In this document: one piece after another, positions 16,756 through 25,051 of the stretch
Position numbering within the stretch: position 1 is the first letter of the stretch
How the letters are laid out: each line of letters starts with the position of its first letter
Assembly: GCF_011290685.1 (NCBI RefSeq)
Contig: NZ_JAANYN010000002.1
Location: forward strand, 737,347 to 801,346
Reading direction: 5' to 3'
From: Cyclobacterium plantarum
Lineage (GTDB): Bacteria; Bacteroidota; Bacteroidia; Cytophagales; Cyclobacteriaceae
Length of the DNA stretch: 64,000 nt
Translations under genes and position numbers: made by a program
Notes under the pieces: generated by a model
What the model was told of the DNA's origin: nothing
The model's database searches: none
What the model saw: the letters and a program-made list of their open reading frames with translations, nothing else

Positions 16756-17704
16756 TACCTATACACCAGGCGAAGAAAAAGACATACAGGAATTGATCCG
16801 GGTAATGAAGGATTACCTGAAGCAAGAGTACCCTGAAGGGAAAATACTCAGAAATTTTCATCCTAAAATGCATGGACTGCTGAAAGGGACCCTTACCATT
16901 CGTCAAGATATTCCGGAAGCCTTACAAGTCGGGCTCTTCAAAGAAGCCAGGCAATATGATGTCTGGATACGACTTTCGAATGCCCCTCCAAAAGTAAGGT
17001 CTGACAAGCCGGCATCCGGAAGGGGATTGGCCATAAAGGTATTGCAAGTGAAAGGGGAAATGATTGAGGAAGATCCTATAGGATGCTCTACCCAAAATTT
17101 TTTGATGACCACAAGCCCCATCCTTTCTACCTGGACCATTCGCTTGTACAAAAAAGCCATTAAAGCAGTACTTTTTGGCCTTTGGGAGCAGTTGCGATTT
17201 GCCATTAACCCCTCCCATTGGCGTAGTATTTACCTTACGCTTAAATATTCCGCCAAACACGATAACCTGCTCTCCCAGACCTATTTCTCTGGTGGTGCAT
17301 TCAGACATGGGCCAGACCACTTCGTGAAATTTGTTTTAACACCCAACAATCCGGCATTGGGCTACACCCTGGCCGAACCCCGGTCGGAAAATTTTCTCAA
17401 AGAGCAACTTAAGGAAGATTGCCAGGAAAGGGAACATGCATTTACACTAAATGTACAGATTCACAAGGACGAAAAAGAACAACCCCTGGAAAACACTTCT
17501 AAAGTTTGGAAAGCCGGTTTGGTGCCGCTTGCCAGTCTGAACATTCCCAAACAGGATTTTGATACCGAAGAAAGAAGAGCCATGGGTGAAAAAATGGAAT
17601 TTTCACCCTGGATTGGACTAGAAGACCACACACCCGTAGGAGGCATCAACCGGGCTAGAAGAAGGGTTTACAAAGAATTGGCAGCCTTTCGGAAATCCTT
17701 ATGA
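16748..17704 (+). CDS. Mini-catalase (catalase-like heme protein)
   Basis: I start at MINTYTPGEEKDIQ (16748), which overlaps the DyP stop by 8 bases; a longer frame from 16694 is a read-back into DyP. The 318 residues are far shorter than true catalases (about 480 or more) but keep the N-terminal catalase pattern: FHPKMHGLLKGTLTI with the distal histidine at residue 42, VWIRLSNAPPKVRSDKP and GRGLAIKVL. The end, FSPWIGLEDHTPVGGINRARRRVY, matches the catalase-like family, where heme binding differs from the classical YxxT ligand site. Related mini-catalases act as fatty-acid hydroperoxide lyases, allene oxide synthases or peroxidases, so dismutation of hydrogen peroxide should not be assumed. 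Confidence 0.87.
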   Translation: MINTYTPGEEKDIQELIRVMKDYLKQEYPEGKILRNFHPKMHGLLKGTLTIRQDIPEALQVGLFKEARQYDVWIRLSNAPPKVRSDKPASGRGLAIKVLQVKGEMIEEDPIGCSTQNFLMTTSPILSTWTIRLYKKAIKAVLFGLWEQLRFAINPSHWRSIYLTLKYSAKHDNLLSQTYFSGGAFRHGPDHFVKFVLTPNNPALGYTLAEPRSENFLKEQLKEDCQEREHAFTLNVQIHKDEKEQPLENTSKVWKAGLVPLASLNIPKQDFDTEERRAMGEKMEFSPWIGLEDHTPVGGINRARRRVYKELAAFRKSL

Positions 17705-19618
17705 AGTTTGTATCCGCTCAAGAAAGGCATTGCGGAAGGTGCTGCCACCGAAAAACTCCTGCTCTTTTTCCCAATCTTTGAACCTGGGAAAGGCTTTTTC
17801 CACCATTGGGCGGTGCCAGGGCTCCACGGAAAGTCCCCAATGGGGAACAGCTCCCAGAGCCAATAACTCCCGTTCCAAACGCATAAACAAAGGATAACTT
17901 CCGGTAACACCTTTGACACTGACCAACTCGATCATGCACATGTCTGATTGGTTCATCATGGATAAATGAGCGGGGCATTTTTTGACAAACCGCAAAGCAA
18001 ATGGTGCAGCTAAAAGCTGATCATACCCCTGAGATTCTTCACAATTTTTTATGATCAAATCCACCGCTTCAAAAACTTTTTCCAAGGGAAAACCAAATTC
18101 TATGGCATAGCCATAAAATTTCAACTCGCCCAAGCCCTGATCCAGTACATTCCTGGCCAGGTCTTCAAACCCACCTCCAGCATCATCTTTGTGGTCAACG
18201 AGTCTTTTCAGGGAATTATTAGTCATTCTGGGAATAGAGAGATGGTTTTTATTAAACACCCAGGGAGAAAGCCTGCCCGAAATGGCAATACCGGAGATAA
18301 AGGTGGAAATATAATTTCTCTCTATGCCCGCATGGTGTTTCCCTGGCACTTCTTCACTGTAATTCCGGGTAGTTACCAGGCATTTTCTTTTTTTACCTTC
18401 CTCCCCTGGCGCTTCCTTATCGCAGTAAGGATTAATCAACACTTCAAAATGCCGGTGGCTATTGATATATTTGTACATCCCCTCCTGCATCATCTCTTCC
18501 CTGACATCATCCCAATTACGCATGATCCTTTCTTCGAAAAGCCTGTAGTCCGGCTGGGCTTCCAGTATCATGGAAAAAACAATGCCAACAGACCCTATAC
18601 CCACCATAACGGCATTGAATTTTTCATCATCCTGAATCAATTTGATGTCATGCTTTTTAACCATCGCGTCCTTTTCAAACGCTTCCCTGTCGGTGATACC
18701 ATCACTTGGTTCTACCCGGAAAACCCTGGCTCCTTTGCCCACTATGGTCATCGACTTTGCAAAAGCGGAAACCGGACCTATTCCTATTCCAGACCCATGT
18801 GTGGAAGTGGCGATAGCCCCTGAAATGGACTGAATGCTGGATCCTCCCTGGTTGATCAGGGCAAGTTTGTGATGGGTCAATGCCTGAATCAAATGCCTGA
18901 TTTTTGTACCTCCTCCTGTTTCAAACAAATAATGGGTTTCCGTACTTTTTTTATTACCAAAGTTAACTTCTACCTCAAACCCATCGCGGAATTTTTCCCT
19001 GATCCATTCTTTGGCCGGCCTTTGGGTCATGTTCATGTCCTGGGTACAAACCATATAATCTTCGCATTGGGCCACAGCGGTCAGGGCATGCCCCGAACCT
19101 ACAGCCCGAATCTTACGGCCATTTTTCTCGGCCAGCCTGACCAGTGAACAAACTTCTTCCAGGCCTGCGTAATCGTATAACTCACATTTAGGATCCTGTG
19201 GTGAGAAATTTTTATAGGCTCCATTGCCGGGAACAAAGAATTGCAGGGGTTCCGAAAAATGATTGCCGAACCAGTTGGCCCATTTCTGTCTTTTATTCTT
19301 TTCCTTTGGGTAAAAATCTTCCCTGGTCAACTCTTTATCCAGGGATAAAACTACCTTCTCATGGCTGTCCATAGTCCTGTTAAGTCGGTTTTCTATCAAC
19401 CTGCGCACAAATCTGGGCCTTATCATGAAATTAATCACAGTCACCCATCGGTTTCTTTTGATCCTTGAACAGTGATCCGTGAGGGTATCATCCAGTATTT
19501 CAATGTGTTTGGGTACATTTTCCCGGTTAAAAATTACTTGAAACACCAATCTTGCAAGGACCCAGGAAACAATGGTATTCCCCTTTTTCCAGGATATAAA
19601 TTTTGATAGGGCAGTCAT
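17699..19618 (-). CDS. FAD-binding oxidase (PCMH/sugar-lactone oxidase type)
   Basis: The 639-residue protein contains an FAD-binding PCMH domain from about residue 125: the flavin-contacting region KIRAVGSGHALTAV, FETGGGTKIRHLIQAL, and GGSSIQSISGAIATSTHGSG, the typical G-x-I-A-T-x-x-H-G signature. The C-terminal HWGLSVEPWHRPMVE resembles the HWGK motif of aldonolactone oxidases and cholesterol oxidase-like flavoproteins. A basic 110-residue N-terminal extension with a hydrophobic stretch (TIVSWVLARLVFQVIF) may associate with the membrane. Enzymes of this class often pass electrons to oxygen and release hydrogen peroxide. Its 3' end overlaps the 3' end of the mini-catalase gene by 6 bases in convergent orientation. 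The substrate cannot be read from the sequence. Confidence 0.88.
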   Translation of the reverse strand: MTALSKFISWKKGNTIVSWVLARLVFQVIFNRENVPKHIEILDDTLTDHCSRIKRNRWVTVINFMIRPRFVRRLIENRLNRTMDSHEKVVLSLDKELTREDFYPKEKNKRQKWANWFGNHFSEPLQFFVPGNGAYKNFSPQDPKCELYDYAGLEEVCSLVRLAEKNGRKIRAVGSGHALTAVAQCEDYMVCTQDMNMTQRPAKEWIREKFRDGFEVEVNFGNKKSTETHYLFETGGGTKIRHLIQALTHHKLALINQGGSSIQSISGAIATSTHGSGIGIGPVSAFAKSMTIVGKGARVFRVEPSDGITDREAFEKDAMVKKHDIKLIQDDEKFNAVMVGIGSVGIVFSMILEAQPDYRLFEERIMRNWDDVREEMMQEGMYKYINSHRHFEVLINPYCDKEAPGEEGKKRKCLVTTRNYSEEVPGKHHAGIERNYISTFISGIAISGRLSPWVFNKNHLSIPRMTNNSLKRLVDHKDDAGGGFEDLARNVLDQGLGELKFYGYAIEFGFPLEKVFEAVDLIIKNCEESQGYDQLLAAPFALRFVKKCPAHLSMMNQSDMCMIELVSVKGVTGSYPLFMRLERELLALGAVPHWGLSVEPWHRPMVEKAFPRFKDWEKEQEFFGGSTFRNAFLERIQTS

Positions 19619-19739: not shown

Positions 19740-19770
19740 TTTGTTTTGATAAAGGAATTGAATACCTTTG
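19740..19770 (+). promoter_or_regulatory. Bacteroidota-type promoter of the TPP-riboswitch operon
   Basis: TTTG at 19740-19743 and TACCTTTG at 19763-19770 are 19 bases apart, matching the Bacteroidota consensus TTTG-N19-TAnnTTTG. Transcription would start near 19776, about 10 bases before the riboswitch. Confidence 0.7.
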
Positions 19771-19785
19771 AACGAAGAAATGAAT

Positions 19786-19862
19786 GCACGGGGTGCTGGA
19801 ATTCAATCCGGCTGAGATCAAACCCGATACCTGATTTGGATAATGCCAACGTAGGGATGCCA
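19786..19862 (+). promoter_or_regulatory. TPP riboswitch (THI element)
   Basis: The aptamer core is clear: ACGGGGTGC starts P1/P2, GGCTGAGAT forms the pyrimidine-binding J3-2 region, ACCCGATACCTGAT follows, and TAATGCCAACGTAGGGATG makes the pyrophosphate-binding arm and closes the fold. This is the Rfam THI-element pattern that binds thiamine pyrophosphate and lowers expression when TPP is abundant. It lies directly upstream of the methyltransferase/AIRS/ThiE-like/Trm112 operon and downstream of a good promoter. Confidence 0.95.
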
Positions 19863-19865
19863 GCC

Positions 19866-19926
19866 AGAATTCCATTTGTATTTTGTCGCTCCATTCCCTG
19901 GCCCATTCAGGTGAATGGAATTTTTG
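19866..19926 (+). terminator. Riboswitch expression platform: terminator and competing antiterminator
   Basis: CCATTC-AGGT-GAATGG (19903-19918) forms a 6-bp hairpin followed by AATTTTTGTTT, a small intrinsic terminator. AATTCCATT at 19868-19876 can instead pair perfectly with AATGGAATT at 19914-19922, breaking the terminator. The antiterminator arm begins 6 bases after the aptamer, so TPP binding could favour termination. This also shows that the ATG at 19915 lies inside the terminator and is not the real start. Confidence 0.65.
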
Positions 19927-19944
19927 TTTAAAGACAACGACAAT

Positions 19945-20667
19945 ATGGAAATTGAAAAAACTGCAGGCGGACTGATTCCCCAAACCAAGCAAAACTGGCA
20001 AAACAGGCCGGAATGGTTTTTTAACCGCAAGCATACTGATACTTACGAGCTGTGGTATGAAGGCCGGTACAAAAGGGCAGAAATCTGGCAGAAAAAAGTC
20101 ATGGAGCAACTGGTATCCAAAGACAGCCGGATCAAAACACTGCTGGAGTTCGGCTGTGGGACCACCCGTTTTACCCGCTGGTGGAAAGAAATTGGCATTG
20201 AGGCCTCCGGTGGAGATATCTCACCTTTGATGCTTTCCCAGGCCATCCATCTTTTTGAGGGAGACCTGGTGATGGCAGATTCGCATCACATGCCCTTCAA
20301 GGACCATTCTTTCGATGCTTTGGCTTTTATCACCACCTTTGAATATTACAAAGACCCGGTGAAGGTCATCCGGGAGGCAGCCAGGGTGGGGAAATATGGC
20401 ATTGCCATGGGCATGATGAACCGGAACTCTCCCAAGGTATTGCGAAGAAGGGTACAGCAGCTCTTTGGGAAAAATCCCTTCTATGTGACAGCTACTTTTT
20501 ACACACCTGAAAAACTGATTCAGCTCATACAGGAAGCTTTGAACGGAAGATCCTATTCCATTGAATGGTCCTGTACCGGATTGCCCAAATGGTTTCCTGT
20601 GCAACAGTGGAGCCTCCCATATGGGGACTTTTTTGGTTTATATGTTCAACTTCATGATGTGGAATAA
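19945..20667 (+). CDS. Class I SAM-dependent methyltransferase, TPP-regulated
   Basis: I start at MEIEKTAGGLIPQTKQNW (19945), beyond the riboswitch terminator, giving 240 residues. Motif I is LLEFGCGTTRFTRWW, followed by the acidic GGDISPLML, the motif II region DSHHMPFKDHSFDALAF and a C-terminal RVGKYGIAMGMMNRNS; this is a UbiE/Methyltransf_11-type Rossmann fold. The stop is one base before the start of the AIR-synthase-like gene. The acceptor substrate is unknown. The TPP riboswitch and the ThiE-like neighbour suggest a thiamine-related small molecule, and the Trm112-like protein at the operon end could be its activating partner, as Trm112 is for several methyltransferases in eukaryotes and archaea (known), but this is inference here. 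Confidence 0.9.
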   Translation: MEIEKTAGGLIPQTKQNWQNRPEWFFNRKHTDTYELWYEGRYKRAEIWQKKVMEQLVSKDSRIKTLLEFGCGTTRFTRWWKEIGIEASGGDISPLMLSQAIHLFEGDLVMADSHHMPFKDHSFDALAFITTFEYYKDPVKVIREAARVGKYGIAMGMMNRNSPKVLRRRVQQLFGKNPFYVTATFYTPEKLIQLIQEALNGRSYSIEWSCTGLPKWFPVQQWSLPYGDFFGLYVQLHDVE

Positions 20668-20668
20668 A

Positions 20669-21724
20669 ATGTCTGATCAACTGGGTAAAATAGATGAAAC
20701 TTTGCTGGAAGAATTTATCACCTCTCATTGCGGTGCAAGCAGGAAAGAGGTCCTCGTAAAACCGGGCTTTGGCATCGACGTATCCCTGGTGGAATTGGCA
20801 GGAAAGCAGGTCATGGCATTAACCAGCGATCCCTTGTCCCTGGTTCCCACCCTTGGCTTGCAGGAATCAGCCTGGCTGTCCGTTCAATTGATGGCCAATG
20901 ACATGGCCACCACGGGTTTTTCCCCTCAATACGGCCAATTTGTATTGAATTTACCAGCAAATTTTTCCAAAGAGGATTTTAAAATTTATTGGACGCATAT
21001 TCACGATTATTGTGAGAAAATAGGCATGGCCATTACCGGCGGTCATACCGGATTTGTGGAAGGCCAGCATTCTACCATTGCTGGAGGGGGTACCTTTGTT
21101 AGCATCCTTCCCAAAGATCAGGCACTCACATCCAATATGGCCCGTTGCGGGGATGTGATCCTGGTAACCAAAACTGCCGCCCTGTCCTCAACGGCCATTC
21201 TTGCCATGAGCTTCCCCAAAACCGTCAGGGAGAAGTTGGGAAAGGAGGTCTACCTTGAAGCCTGTGAATCATTTTACCAGACTTCTTCTCTGGAGGAAGC
21301 TTTAACAGCCGTTGGCAACCCTGGGGAAAAAGCGGTTACTGCCATGCATGATGTAACTGAAGGAGGTATTTTAGGTGCCATCTATGAGCTGGCTGCTGCA
21401 TCCGGATGTGGGGTATCCCTGGAGAAAAATCAGCTTCCTGTAGGCCGGGTCCAGCAAGCCATATGCAACATTTTTGACCTGGATCCATTAAAATGCATCG
21501 GGGCTGGCTCAATGATCATTTCCTGCGATAAGTCAAATGCCAGACGCATTCAGGAAAGGATATTGGACAAGGGAATTGCCTGTGCTCAGGTAGGGGAATT
21601 GACGGAGAAAGTGCAAGGAATGGTTTTGCGGCAGGAAAATGGAACAGCCAAAAAGCTTACCTACCAAAAAACAGACCCCTACTGGGCAGCTTTTTCGAAT
21701 GCATTCAAACAGGGCTGGAAATGA
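20669..21724 (+). CDS. AIR synthase-related protein (HypE/ThiL-like)
   Basis: The start MSDQLGKIDETLLEEF (20669) lies 1 base after the methyltransferase stop; longer frames run inside that gene. The 351-residue protein has the PurM fold: an N-terminal ATP-binding half with LTSDPLSLVPTLG, SVQLMANDMATTG and ITGGHTGFVEG, and a C-terminal half with DVILVTKTAALSSTAILA, HDVTEGGILGAIYEL and KCIGAGSMIISC. The usual GDDAA metal motif reads G-I-D-V-S here, so the first aspartate is missing. The family includes ThiL (thiamine-phosphate kinase), HypE, SelD, PurM and PurL. Overall it looks closer to HypE, yet no hydrogenase genes are present. The riboswitch links it to thiamine. It overlaps the next start by 4 bases. 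Confidence 0.88.
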   Translation: MSDQLGKIDETLLEEFITSHCGASRKEVLVKPGFGIDVSLVELAGKQVMALTSDPLSLVPTLGLQESAWLSVQLMANDMATTGFSPQYGQFVLNLPANFSKEDFKIYWTHIHDYCEKIGMAITGGHTGFVEGQHSTIAGGGTFVSILPKDQALTSNMARCGDVILVTKTAALSSTAILAMSFPKTVREKLGKEVYLEACESFYQTSSLEEALTAVGNPGEKAVTAMHDVTEGGILGAIYELAAASGCGVSLEKNQLPVGRVQQAICNIFDLDPLKCIGAGSMIISCDKSNARRIQERILDKGIACAQVGELTEKVQGMVLRQENGTAKKLTYQKTDPYWAAFSNAFKQGWK

Positions 21725-22362
21725 AAAAGCTCAACCTTCAACCCCAAAGGGGAATTTACCTGATCATCGATCCCGCAGACAGACCGGAAAGCGAATGCTT
21801 TAGCATACTGGAAAAGCTATGTCGCTATCCAATCATTGCCCTTCAGATCTGGGACCATTTCAGGGAATCCCAGGGTAGGCTGAAGTTTATCCACAGGGTA
21901 TGCCAGTTGGCCCAGCCCTGCCCTTTTCCTGTATTGATCAATAACCGTTGGGAATTGATAAAAGAAACAGGTGCGGATGGAGTGCATTTTGACACCCTAC
22001 CAGAAAACCTGGATGGAATCAAAGAGGCACTGCCTGACAAATCCATTTTCGGTATCACCTGCAATAATGATCAAGAACTCATCGACAAAGCTGAAGAAAA
22101 AGGTTTTGACTATCTTTCCTTTTGTTCCCTGTTTCCTTCCCCAACCGCAAATAGCTGTGATCTTGTTTCCTTTGAAACCATACGGGAAACGGAAAAAAAA
22201 AGCAGGCTACCTCTCTTTCTGGCCGGAGGCATTGACCTGCATAACTTGTCCAGACTAAATGAGCTTTCCTATTCCGGTGTGGCAGTAATCTCAGGCATCA
22301 TGCAGGCAGCAGATCCCTGCAAGGCCATGGAAGAATATTTAAATCAATTACAAACCAACTGA
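21721..22362 (+). CDS. Divergent ThiE/TenI-like TIM-barrel protein
   Basis: The 213-residue protein follows the thiamine-phosphate synthase layout: GIYLIIDP, ALQIWDHF, PVLINNRWELIKETGADGVHFD, GITCNNDQELIDKAEEKGFDYLSF, FPSPTANSC and PLFLAGGIDLHNL, then GVAVISGIMQAADP. Compared with ThiE, the QxRxK motif that binds pyrophosphate reads Q-I-W-D-H, so Arg and Lys are lost, and the TxTK motif reads S-P-T-A, losing Lys. The barrel and the Asn-rich N-N-R segment remain. A changed substrate or function is therefore likely, although the TPP riboswitch keeps it in the thiamine regulon. The start overlaps the AIRS stop (ATGA), so the genes are coupled. Confidence 0.87.
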   Translation: MKKLNLQPQRGIYLIIDPADRPESECFSILEKLCRYPIIALQIWDHFRESQGRLKFIHRVCQLAQPCPFPVLINNRWELIKETGADGVHFDTLPENLDGIKEALPDKSIFGITCNNDQELIDKAEEKGFDYLSFCSLFPSPTANSCDLVSFETIRETEKKSRLPLFLAGGIDLHNLSRLNELSYSGVAVISGIMQAADPCKAMEEYLNQLQTN

Positions 22363-22366
22363 TCCC

Positions 22367-22633
22367 ATGAAGATAAATACCATAAAAAAATTGTGTTGCC
22401 CCTTTGACAAATCCGATTTGACCTTGACCAGAATTTCAGAAGATACTGAAGAAAGAATCATGGAAGGCTGGTTACATTGTGCTCAGTGCAAGCGGATCTA
22501 TCCTATCGTAAAGGGTATTCCCATCATGAACCCGGATGCTTACAGGGAGTTTGAAATGGAAAAGCCGCTGTTTGAAAAATGGCAAAAACAACTCGGGGAA
22601 AAAGAGGTGAAAAATTTCAGGTTGGTGGAATAA
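22367..22633 (+). CDS. Trm112-like zinc-ribbon protein
   Basis: The 88-residue protein begins 4 bases after the ThiE-like stop. It has a CCPFDKSDL pair at the start and a CAQCKRIYPIVKGIPIM segment, the Trm112/YcaR pattern of two CxxC-like sites with the typical I-Y-P-I-x-x-G-I-P terminal motif. The C-terminal helix is charged (EKPLFEKWQKQLGEKE). Trm112 proteins bind and activate methyltransferases, so pairing with the first gene of this operon is an attractive idea. Bacterial Trm112-like proteins also occur alone near lipid A or other genes, so a separate role cannot be ruled out. Confidence 0.85.
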   Translation: MKINTIKKLCCPFDKSDLTLTRISEDTEERIMEGWLHCAQCKRIYPIVKGIPIMNPDAYREFEMEKPLFEKWQKQLGEKEVKNFRLVE

Positions 22634-23089: not shown

Positions 23090-25051
23090 ATGCGCATAAA
23101 AAGACCCAGGATTCGCCGGAAAATAATTTTTACCCTGGAAAGGCAACTGGTAAAAGGGGCCCATTTTCAGTTGTTGCTGGTAGCTGCACTGATTGGTTTG
23201 ATCTCCATTATCGGGGGCATTCTGGTGATGCCATCGGGATCCCCAACAGCTACTTTCGGGGAGTCTGTCTGGTGGGCTTTTCTGAGGCTTACAGATCCGG
23301 GATACCTGGGTGAAGACGTGGGCAACTGGAGAAGGTTTATCTCAACCCTGATAACCGTGGCAGGGTATGTAATATTTCTTGGATCTTTGGTGGCCGTCAT
23401 TACCACCTGGATGAACCGAAAAATCAGGCATTTAGAACAAGGACTTACACCTGTGACAGCCAATGACCACATCCTCATTTTAGGCTGGTCAAATCGAACC
23501 ATACACATAGCCGCTGAAATTTTTCAATCTGTGGGTAGGATCAAACGGTTTTTGGAAAGATACGATGCTAAAAAGTTACAGTTGATTATTCTTTCAGAAG
23601 AAGTCAGCCCTTTTCAAATGCAGGAACTCAAAGACCATCCAATGATCGGAAGGCGGGCTCATGATATTGTTTTGCGTACCGGTCTGGCCATTGACCGGGA
23701 ACACCTCCGAAGAGTGGATAGCTTAAATGCATCATGCATCATTATACCAAGTTTGGCCTATGGAAGAAAAGAACTCATCAATCCGGATATAGAAACCATC
23801 AAATGCCTGCTATCATTGAATGCAGAAGCCAACTCCCAAAACATCAAGAAGCTGCCGTATGTGGTGGCGGAAATTCAAGATGCAAATAAGGTTAATGCTG
23901 CCTATCGGTCTTATTCGGGGCCATTGGAAGTAGTCGGCAGCAATACCATTATCAGCCGGCTAATGGCTCAGAATATCCGACATCCGGGGCTTTCGGAAGT
24001 ATACAATGAAATTCTCTCGCAGGTGGACGATAACAACCTGTTTTCGCAGGCCTTTCCTGAATTGGTGGGCCAACCGATAGGAAAATTGAAGAAGGTTTTT
24101 ACCAAAGCCGTAGTCCTGGGAATAGTAAAAAAGGAGGGTGAGCATTTTACCCCTCAATTAAATTTGCCTGATGAAAAGGTCTTGGAAGAAGGAGACCTAT
24201 TGGTTTTACTTGCCAGAAGTTCTTCGGATCTGATTTGGAGAAAGGACAGACTTTCGATTGAAACTGAAACTGTCCCATTTCTCGGCCAGCTGCCGGTGGA
24301 CGAACTGGAAAATACCATACGCATATTGATTTTGGGATGGAATGAACATGTTCCTTCGCTTATCAGGGAATTGTGTACCTATGAGGAAGAAAAATATTTT
24401 ATCCGTCTGGTGGCTTTGCGACCTGTTACCGAAAGGGAAAAGGACCTGGCATTTTTGGAAGAAGAAAACCTCAGGGTTTCGGTTGAGCATTTTGTTGCCG
24501 ACTTTATCCGGGAATCCGAGATCAAAAAAACTGAAGCAGAAACTTTTGACCACATTCTCCTGGTCAGCAGCGACCGGATGGAAGAGGAAGAAGAAGCAGA
24601 CGCAAGGACCATGGTAGGTTATGTTTTACTTGAGGAGGTTTTGGAGAAAGCACCCAAAAGACCTTCGGTTTTACTCGAATTGTCGGACCCCAGCAACGAA
24701 TCCCTTGTCAAAAGCTTTCAAAGTGAAGTCATCATCAGCCCCATGGTATTAAGTCACCTTCTGGCAGGGATTGCCCTGCAAAGGGAACTCAACAGTATTT
24801 ATAATGAACTTTTTACCGTTGGAGGTGCAGAAATAATATTCAGGGACCTTAACGAATACGGGGTTTCTTTTGGGAAATTACAGTTCCATGAGCTTGAGTC
24901 ACTGGCCACTGCTCATGGAGAAACCGTGCTGGGAATTTATTTAAATCGGGCAGATGAAGCAGGAAACCATCTTTTACTCAACCCTTCAAAAGGTAAGAAA
25001 ATAGACCTTTCCGATAAAGACAGGCTTGTGGTCCTCACCACTTTTTATTAA
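23090..25051 (+). CDS. CASTOR/POLLUX-like ion channel with RCK/TrkA-N domains
   Basis: The 653-residue protein has a basic N-terminus, a membrane helix at about residues 28-47, a pore-like re-entrant segment with TDPGYLGEDVG (68-78) and a second helix at about 84-107. A long cytoplasmic part follows, with nucleotide-binding RCK/TrkA-N domains (HILILGWSNRTIHIAAEI at about 124, and a second ILILGWNEHVPSLIREL at about 410). This matches the bacterial relatives of plant CASTOR/POLLUX/DMI1 channels (known to conduct cations such as Ca2+ or K+ in the nuclear envelope). The bacterial role is not settled; potassium or calcium homeostasis is a reasonable guess. The gene stands alone, with 456 bases before and 400 after it. 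Confidence 0.9.
   Translation: MRIKRPRIRRKIIFTLERQLVKGAHFQLLLVAALIGLISIIGGILVMPSGSPTATFGESVWWAFLRLTDPGYLGEDVGNWRRFISTLITVAGYVIFLGSLVAVITTWMNRKIRHLEQGLTPVTANDHILILGWSNRTIHIAAEIFQSVGRIKRFLERYDAKKLQLIILSEEVSPFQMQELKDHPMIGRRAHDIVLRTGLAIDREHLRRVDSLNASCIIIPSLAYGRKELINPDIETIKCLLSLNAEANSQNIKKLPYVVAEIQDANKVNAAYRSYSGPLEVVGSNTIISRLMAQNIRHPGLSEVYNEILSQVDDNNLFSQAFPELVGQPIGKLKKVFTKAVVLGIVKKEGEHFTPQLNLPDEKVLEEGDLLVLLARSSSDLIWRKDRLSIETETVPFLGQLPVDELENTIRILILGWNEHVPSLIRELCTYEEEKYFIRLVALRPVTEREKDLAFLEEENLRVSVEHFVADFIRESEIKKTEAETFDHILLVSSDRMEEEEEADARTMVGYVLLEEVLEKAPKRPSVLLELSDPSNESLVKSFQSEVIISPMVLSHLLAGIALQRELNSIYNELFTVGGAEIIFRDLNEYGVSFGKLQFHELESLATAHGETVLGIYLNRADEAGNHLLLNPSKGKKIDLSDKDRLVVLTTFY

Follow-up and report, generated by a model that had tools for sequence, protein, structure and literature searches.

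The Bacteroidetes thiamine operons that are headed by a TPP riboswitch include, in the excerpts of PMC5613172, thiSEGCHF-tenI, OMthi and pnuT-tnr3. The locus described here lies in a window of 64,000 nucleotides (the window being the whole stretch of DNA that was analysed) and resembles these operons, as excerpted there, in that the aptamer heads a Bacteroidota operon with a member of the ThiE superfamily in it. It differs from them in that ThiC, ThiG, ThiH, ThiS, ThiF and a transporter are absent from the four-gene cassette, which has a methyltransferase, an AIR-synthase-fold protein and a Trm112-like protein instead. TPP aptamers ahead of unknown genes are reported from metagenomes in the excerpts of PMC2211319, where the four-gene set is not named. 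The cassette was not found in the excerpted text of PMC9666465, PMC11346370, PMC2258182 and PMC9909488 either. Likewise, a full-text search of the open-licence PMC literature found no description of the set, in line with the first-pass annotation, which had been made from the letters of the sequence and could point to no described pathway with these genes.

The TPP aptamer (Rfam RF00059; 19779–19874, plus strand) scored 62.6 bits against a cut-off of 54.3, with an E-value of 6.8e-10, and is the sole RNA found by Rfam at gathering scores in the whole 64 kb window. An aptamer precedes the methyltransferase gene in 80/80 named loci (the best 80 of 221 relatives), in 22/22 carriers of the host's family and in 13/13 others, so the TPP riboswitch proposed earlier stands. 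When Rfam was run directly, the aptamer was over the cut-off in 10/10 cassettes, i.e. in the window and in 9/9 further ones. The scores of our aptamer model R1 on cassettes are not independent, because 10 of the 11 aptamers from which it was built are cassette-derived. A terminator-like hairpin with a T-rich tail follows (19890–19929, plus strand; −15.7 kcal/mol by script) and is the probable expression platform; the arm region spans about 19890–19919 and the sequence is T-rich through 19929. The match to the terminator consensus is weaker (19903–19918; 1 found vs 0.4 expected). A comparable hairpin lies 3' of the aptamer in 52/80 loci, again the best 80 of 221 relatives, compared with 8/80 random places. 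From this anatomy of the leader we infer that the four genes would be under TPP-dependent control.

Behind the aptamer the genes for a SAM methyltransferase, an AIR-synthase-fold protein, a ThiE-fold protein and a Trm112-like protein are packed in this order with intergenic gaps of 1, −4 and 4. The positions of these frames were confirmed, and each of the four protein labels given to them initially is backed by a Pfam match; none of the four proteins passes an NCBIfam cut-off. The identical order was found in 22/22 carriers of the host's family and in 78/80 named loci (best 80 of 221 relatives), the remaining two running off their contigs. As far as the contigs extend, the four genes never separate in these 22, 13 and 80 loci; one group of short loci ends before the position of the Trm112-like gene. 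The cassette is a fixed unit with strict linkage and is found in many Bacteroidota. Because the set recurs so strictly, the reservation of the first-pass annotation that the four genes might fail to co-occur in other genomes no longer applies. A wider conserved neighbourhood was considered and rejected, since the next commonest cluster is present in only 11/80 loci (best 80 of 221). In a quick tree of the AIR-fold protein the bacterial orders are intermixed, which suggests horizontal transfer of the cassette. Its distribution across genomes is patchy; in Arenibacter, for example, 8/18 genomes carry the methyltransferase.

The ThiE-fold protein (213 aa; 21721–22362, plus strand; Pfam TMP-TENI 1.2e-28), whose gene start overlaps the end of the AIR-fold gene at 21724 (gap −4), was modelled with a pLDDT of 94.1. 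It is a TMP-TENI TIM barrel, matched by Foldseek to 2TPS, and ThiE and TenI (PF02581; B. subtilis 2TPS, 1YAD) are its best match in both fold and sequence. However, it scored 108.5 against the NCBIfam thiE cut-off of 145.1, and its active site is altered. R59, K61, D93 and K159 of B. subtilis ThiE are what we take to be the pyrophosphate and metal residues. Judged against a reference set of 15 PF02581 fragments (ten strong ThiE, five weaker TenI-like), Arg or Lys occurs in 0/78 aligned cassette proteins at R59, K61 and K159, and Asp in 0/78 at D93. Trp stands at R59, His, Asn or Cys at K61 and Asn or Glu at D93, and 12/78 have a Lys at most two columns from K159. The Gln of the ThiE pocket is retained in 78/78 and the Asn in 76/78; C135 and C146, invariant among the 78, are a further difference from ThiE and TenI. 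Both the changed residues and the scarcity of strong ThiD among carriers argue against a plain ThiE.

The AIR-fold protein (351 aa; 20669–21724, plus strand; Pfam AIRS 1.6e-8, AIRS_C 5.3e-18; model pLDDT 95.2) has the two-domain AIRS fold in common with ThiL and HypE of the AIR synthase superfamily, and its top fold matches include 3VYT and 3C9U. Its NCBIfam scores are below the cut-offs for both hypE (88.2, cut-off 251.6) and thiL (83.2, cut-off 184.15). Unlike ThiL and HypE, it has a histidine, H126, at the position of an Asp found in both (80/80 of the best 80 of 221 relatives), an HDxTE motif and a C-terminal DPYW. The motif comparison found no GGEDYEL, and at the positions of ThiL's GDD, GGDT and GGEDYEL the protein differs from six ThiL of relatives. 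The C-terminal cysteine of HypE takes the carbamoyl group. Whereas 8/8 HypE-like relatives compared end in PRIC, a terminal Cys was found in 0/80 of the best 80 of 221 cassette relatives. Judged by scores and motifs, the protein is neither ThiL nor HypE, and the earlier view that both it and the ThiE-like protein are non-canonical was borne out. Nor is it likely to fill a kinase gap: full-score ThiL was present in 45/45 genomes searched, so no TMP kinase is missing, and thiamine kinase (TPK) was absent in 34/34 family genomes, 12 of them cassette-free, and present in 11/11 carriers from other families. Thus the cassette does not track the TPK gap.

The methyltransferase (240 aa; 19945–20667, plus strand; Pfam Methyltransf_11 1.2e-16) shows the highest conservation among the four proteins. 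Its start was placed by homologue starts: translation from the ATG at 19945 yields 240 aa, a length more frequent than any other among homologues (32/70), and the upstream ATG at 19915 falls inside the terminator-like hairpin. The best NCBIfam score, 43.2 for MenG_MenH_UbiE, is below the cut-off of 158.35. The Trm112-like protein (88 aa; 22367–22633, plus strand; Pfam Trm112p 2.6e-7) has a Trm112p domain at 30.9, over the Pfam cut-off of 22, and is below the NCBIfam Trm112_arch cut-off (61 vs 77); its four Cys columns are conserved in 78/78, and its profile matches are 6ZXW_H (6.3e-13) and 6F5Z_C (1.6e-9). It is plausible that the two proteins pair, as both match known Trm112-methyltransferase pairs (archaeal entry 6F5Z; 18S rRNA guanine-N7 methyltransferase) weakly by profile, the methyltransferase at 1.7e-5 to the 18S rRNA enzyme and 6.5e-4 to 6F5Z_A. 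Yet the methyltransferase is closest to another enzyme, 1VLM (7.7e-9). In excerpted literature, the substrates of known Trm112 partner methyltransferases are rRNA, tRNA and proteins.

ThiC was absent in 20/22 family carriers and in 43/49 carriers from named loci, the latter drawn from 50 of the 80 named loci and sharing at least five genomes with the former; 2/22 and 6/49, respectively, have it. The leaf isolates Chryseobacterium sp. Leaf394 and Pedobacter sp. Leaf176 are among the named-locus carriers in which ThiC is missing. Among family relatives without the cassette ThiC was absent in 19/25 and present in 6/25 (p 0.25 against the 2/22 carriers). Strict replacement of ThiC by the cassette is therefore not supported, because cassette-free relatives mostly lack ThiC too. 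In the host both ThiC and ThiG are absent genome-wide, and by this measure it lacks canonical thiamine biosynthesis. For these two genes, the lack of thi genes remarked on in the first-pass annotation extends beyond the locus, but such a lack is also common in cassette-free relatives, as the ThiC counts show. Taken as a whole, the interpretation given there is partly supported.

Strong ThiG was absent in 31/33 carriers, matches under 35 bits being taken as other barrels, and a strong ThiE besides the cassette protein was absent in 30/33, PF02581 matches under 60 bits being taken as other barrels or TenI-like. Strong ThiD was absent in 19/22 carriers, a count that excludes partial matches scoring between 20 and 54 bits, of which some exceed the Pfam cut-off; the host has such a partial match at 40.6 bits. 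Full-score ThiL was found in 33/33 carriers and in 12/12 non-carriers, from which (also in the ThiE, TPK and ThiG counts) no rates are drawn, because five of the 12 were chosen for having ThiC. Since five of the 12 non-carriers with ThiL have zero PF02581 match, ThiL does not need the cassette. The equal loss of ThiC in non-carriers, its presence in some carriers and the independence of ThiL from the cassette are points against the explanation that we prefer below.

As its proteins are only partly like known B1 enzymes, the cassette probably marks an undescribed way to obtain or mend vitamin B1. The best explanation, which we favour tentatively and which comes close to being probable, is a mobile TPP-repressed cassette that makes or restores thiamine phosphate from a precursor, and so gives the cell more of it, without using the chemistry of ThiC, ThiD and ThiE. 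At low TPP the leader would read through and the four genes would be made. The methyltransferase, probably partnered by the Trm112-like protein, would methylate a small pyrimidine- or thiazole-type compound, and the AIR-fold protein would use ATP to activate or close an intermediate. The ThiE-fold protein, with its pocket Gln and Asn kept but the pyrophosphate and metal residues gone, could then complete or rearrange a phosphorylated product of the thiazole or thiamine type; its pair of invariant Cys may take part in this step. The resident ThiL would act last, converting thiamine phosphate to TPP. What this scheme says about substrates, sequence of steps, pairing with Trm112 and regulation is what we infer from the make-up of the cassette. 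In its favour are the aptamer ahead of every cassette examined, the strict linkage of the genes, the thiamine-enzyme folds of two of the four proteins, the altered residues of the ThiE-like protein, and a genome background in which ThiL is kept whereas strong ThiG, ThiD and a second strong ThiE are mostly missing.

The same TPP control and ThiE/ThiL-like folds would also suit a cassette for the repair of damaged thiamine or for defence against a thiamine-like antivitamin that lowers usable TPP, with methylation, ATP use and the ThiE-like pocket acting on the damaged or toxic vitamer. A patchy, transferred distribution is typical of a conditional trait, and the cassette occurs both with and without ThiC. 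However, the neighbour clusters of the best 80 of 221 loci, which share little else, revealed no linked gene for resistance, efflux or a hydrolase, and the cassette has no Nudix or amidohydrolase member; we consider this reading unlikely. If, on the other hand, the products replaced a TPP-dependent function during TPP shortage and did not lead to TPP, the regulation would fit, but the thiamine-enzyme folds that the models give to two of the four proteins would be needless for such a by-pass and none of the four resembles a carbonyl- or keto-acid enzyme. This seems quite improbable, despite the analogy of the B12-independent isozyme metE under B12 riboswitches (excerpts of PMC2211319). Very improbable is ordinary salvage by a diverged but plain ThiE and a TMP kinase, with the other two genes as passengers. 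Folds and best family names agree with it, whereas 75 to 78 of the 78 proteins differ from ThiE at the pyrophosphate/metal positions, strong ThiD is scarce and ThiL full-score in carriers, and the supposed passengers never leave the other genes, the methyltransferase being the best conserved of all.

Rather unlikely, too, is compact synthesis of at least one thiamine moiety without ThiC or ThiG, by AIR-fold ring closure, methyl transfer and a ThiE-like step using cysteine chemistry. AIR-fold enzymes such as PurM and HypE carry out ATP-driven ring closure and dehydration, and most carriers lack ThiC, ThiG, ThiD and a second ThiE and keep ThiL. Yet just three catalytic proteins would have to build two ring systems, a sulfur carrier is not evident, and B1 auxotrophy has been measured in an isolate of Arenibacter (excerpts of PMC12448291), a genus in which some genomes carry the methyltransferase. 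We give an equally low probability to the wider proposal that the cassette might either make such a moiety or yield a new thiamine-like cofactor, its methyltransferase acting with Trm112, its AIR-fold protein as a cyclase or kinase and its ThiE-fold enzyme through cysteine. Genome-based calls of thiamine auxotrophy use the absence of thiC, thiG or thiE (excerpts of PMC9666465, PMC12448291). With a transferable TPP-linked cassette in genomes scored as auxotrophs, such scoring may overlook a precursor, a route of salvage or synthesis; were ThiC-/ThiG-independent synthesis true, many genomes scored auxotrophic by missing thiC and thiG would have been misjudged. The cassette also presents a testable question, with three uncharacterised proteins whose folds give strong clues and whose genes are strictly linked.

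Relatives of the AIR-fold protein occur outside the cassette as uncharacterised 'AIR synthase family proteins' of haloarchaea and others. Unlike the cassette protein, those in the five plasmid regions with annotation do not belong to such a set of four genes. No thiamine neighbour was found beside the other archaeal and cyanobacterial relatives examined, a further point against the preferred explanation. On 3/3 Haloarcula plasmids the relative adjoins a gene for a thiamine-binding protein, a point in favour of that explanation which counts as one event at most because all are of one genus. The haloarchaeal-type proteins are about 26–31% identical to the cassette AIR-fold protein and have H126, T127, H227, D228, T230 and E231 in common with it.

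Four genes lie behind a TPP aptamer on its strand in the Cyclobacterium plantarum window, coding for a SAM methyltransferase, an AIR-synthase-fold protein, a ThiE-fold protein and a Trm112-like protein, in this order and separated by 1, -4 and 4 bases. The aptamer (19779-19874, plus strand; 62.6 bits, cut-off 54.3) was the sole Rfam match at gathering scores in the 64 kb. A terminator-like hairpin (about 19890-19919, plus strand), T-rich to 19929, follows 3' of it. This hairpin takes in the methyltransferase's first ATG (19915); from the ATG at 19945 the gene (19945-20667, plus strand) codes for 240 aa, the most frequent length among the homologues (32/70). None of the four proteins passed an NCBIfam cut-off.

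The four genes are a fixed cassette. AIR-fold matches at 1e-10 were found in 31 of 148 Cyclobacteriaceae genomes, 22 of them close (E <1e-80), and at all 22 loci with a close match the four genes were adjacent and in the same order. Nine genomes of the family had weak matches only (E >1e-17); eight of these matches were aligned and end in PRIC, like HypE. A methyltransferase search in 395 genomes of the phylum gave 13 matches: two in Cyclobacteriaceae, one each in a further family of its order and of its class, and nine within a single family of a different class. At all 13 loci the AIR-fold gene adjoins the methyltransferase and the ThiE-like gene is next to the AIR-fold gene (12 read from the loci themselves, the thirteenth from match positions; the Trm112 position lay beyond these loci). 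Among the best 80 of 221 methyltransferase relatives in named genomes, all Bacteroidota by title, 78 loci had all four genes in order and the other two end at contig ends. No further gene cluster accompanied the cassette at more than 11 of these 80 loci; the clusters holding the window's flanking oxidoreductase (FAD_binding_4 and ALO domains; 17699-19618, minus strand) and Castor/Pollux-type channel protein (23090-25051, plus strand) were seen in 8/80.

With a model built from 11 aptamers, 10 of them of cassette origin, a TPP aptamer was found upstream of the methyltransferase at 80/80 named loci, 22/22 Cyclobacteriaceae loci and 13/13 phylum-search loci. Rfam itself confirmed the aptamer in all nine further cassettes on which it was run. 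A similar hairpin stands behind the aptamer at 52 of the 80 named loci, compared with 8 of 80 random places. In a Christiangramia MAG, a second TPP-aptamer match (L142:10821-10913, minus strand; 37.7 bits) lies 3' of the cassette on the opposite strand, directed back at it, and is perhaps a remnant.

We class the cassette as a TPP-riboswitch operon whose gene set is undescribed; searches of open-licence PMC full texts found no description of this set. TPP-linked operons described in gut Bacteroidetes are thiSEGCHF-tenI for biosynthesis and OMthi and pnuT-tnr3 for transport (PMC5613172).

The methyltransferase profile matched 1VLM, an enzyme of unassigned function, best, and its weaker matches included Trm112-linked enzymes (6F5Z_A, 6.5e-4; 18S rRNA guanine-N7 methyltransferase, 1.7e-5); the Trm112-like profile matched 6ZXW_H and 6F5Z_C. 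The AIR-fold model (pLDDT 95.2) is closest to HypE and ThiL. However, all 80 AIR-fold proteins have His (H126) where ThiL and HypE both have Asp. HDxTE and C-terminal DPYW motifs are likewise present in all 80, and a terminal Cys in none. Plasmid relatives annotated as 'AIR synthase family' proteins (22 records) reach 31% identity at best, in Haloarcula, and five that were aligned have the central motif residues in common with the cassette protein. On all three Haloarcula plasmids the AIR-fold gene adjoins, in divergent orientation, genes for a thiamine-binding protein (Pfam Thiamine_BP, checked for one of the three) and a thiamine-annotated substrate-binding protein; the Halobacterium, Haloferax and Acaryochloris relatives examined had no thiamine-binding neighbour.

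For the ThiE-like protein the model is a confident TIM barrel (pLDDT 94.1), closest to B. subtilis thiamin phosphate synthase. In ThiE we take Q57 and N92 to be pocket residues, and R59, K61, D93 and K159 to be pyrophosphate and metal positions. The former are largely kept among the 78 sequences (Gln in 78, Asn in 76). R59 is replaced by Trp in all 78, K61 by Asn, His or Cys, and D93 by Asn (75) or Glu (3); Lys was found in the K159 column in 0/78, with a Lys at most two columns away in 12/78. Two cysteines, C135 and C146, are invariant.

In its own genome the cassette is accompanied by ThiL; no ThiC, ThiG or TPK match and no further PF02581 protein was found there, and the ThiD family gave partial matches only (best 40.6 bits). 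The only other TPP aptamer of this genome (C31:210057-210153; L043:5058-5154) precedes a gene for a TonB-dependent receptor of 801 aa, which is likely a thiamine uptake gene. ThiC was missing from 20/22 and 43/49 carriers in two overlapping genome sets. Strong ThiG (35 bits or more) was missing from 31/33 carriers, strong ThiD (above partial matches of 20 to 54 bits) from 19/22 and another strong ThiE (PF02581 at 60 bits or more) from 30/33. ThiL was above the cut-off in 33/33 carriers and 12/12 non-carriers, five of the latter chosen for having ThiC. Because of the changed ThiE residues, and all the more because strong ThiD is mostly missing, it seems unlikely from the sequences that the ThiE-like protein uses HMP-PP as ThiE does.

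Simple replacement of ThiC by the cassette is not supported, since ThiC was also missing in 19/25 relatives without it (Fisher p 0.25 versus carriers) and five Cyclobacteriaceae non-carriers (G001, G005, G014, G015, G017) have ThiL but no PF02581 match. Across 34 genomes of the family ThiL was found in 34 and TPK in none; those without TPK and PF02581 may obtain thiamine monophosphate by taking up phosphates, or with the help of a thiamine kinase that belongs to a different family. In three genomes (G018, G095, G020; L175, L176, L177) a strong ThiE adjoins a strong ThiD, with no ThiC and with a TPP-aptamer match at the same loci, which looks like ordinary precursor salvage; G095 also has the cassette.

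Our favoured, if tentative, interpretation is that the cassette draws on an unrecognised precursor for salvage or restoration. Judging from the leader's anatomy, low TPP would allow read-through and the cassette genes would be made; their products could yield thiamine phosphate via methyl transfer, an ATP-dependent step and the ThiE-like barrel, and ThiL would then finish TPP. A role in repair or detoxification appears rather unlikely, and compact synthesis somewhat more so. Thiamine auxotrophy is linked to missing ThiC and ThiG in PMC9666465, and PMC12448291 reports an Arenibacter isolate that is auxotrophic for B1 (half-saturation constant 1.7e-10 M); this isolate's auxotrophy counts neither for nor against synthesis by the cassette. 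TPP sparing is improbable, and a diverged form of plain salvage is the least probable of these readings.

Mean pairwise identity was 82.7% for the methyltransferase, 59.6% for the AIR-fold, 46.9% for the ThiE-like and 60.2% for the Trm112-like protein. The methyltransferase is thus conserved far above its partners, a gap unusual for a single operon. A quick tree of the 80 AIR-fold proteins required 25 changes of order label (minimum 5; shuffled mean 40.1), and its starred groups mix orders, for example Aquirufa with Ferruginibacter and Pedobacter, or Algoriphagus alkaliphilus with Arenibacter. This mixing is compatible with repeated horizontal transfer, of which mixed groups are by themselves no proof. 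The methyltransferase was present in 8 of 18 Arenibacter genomes and in two copies in two of them: G549 has two cassettes about 32 kb apart (G549:C44:133013-133729 and 165147-165863; L114, L116), and G550 has two as well.
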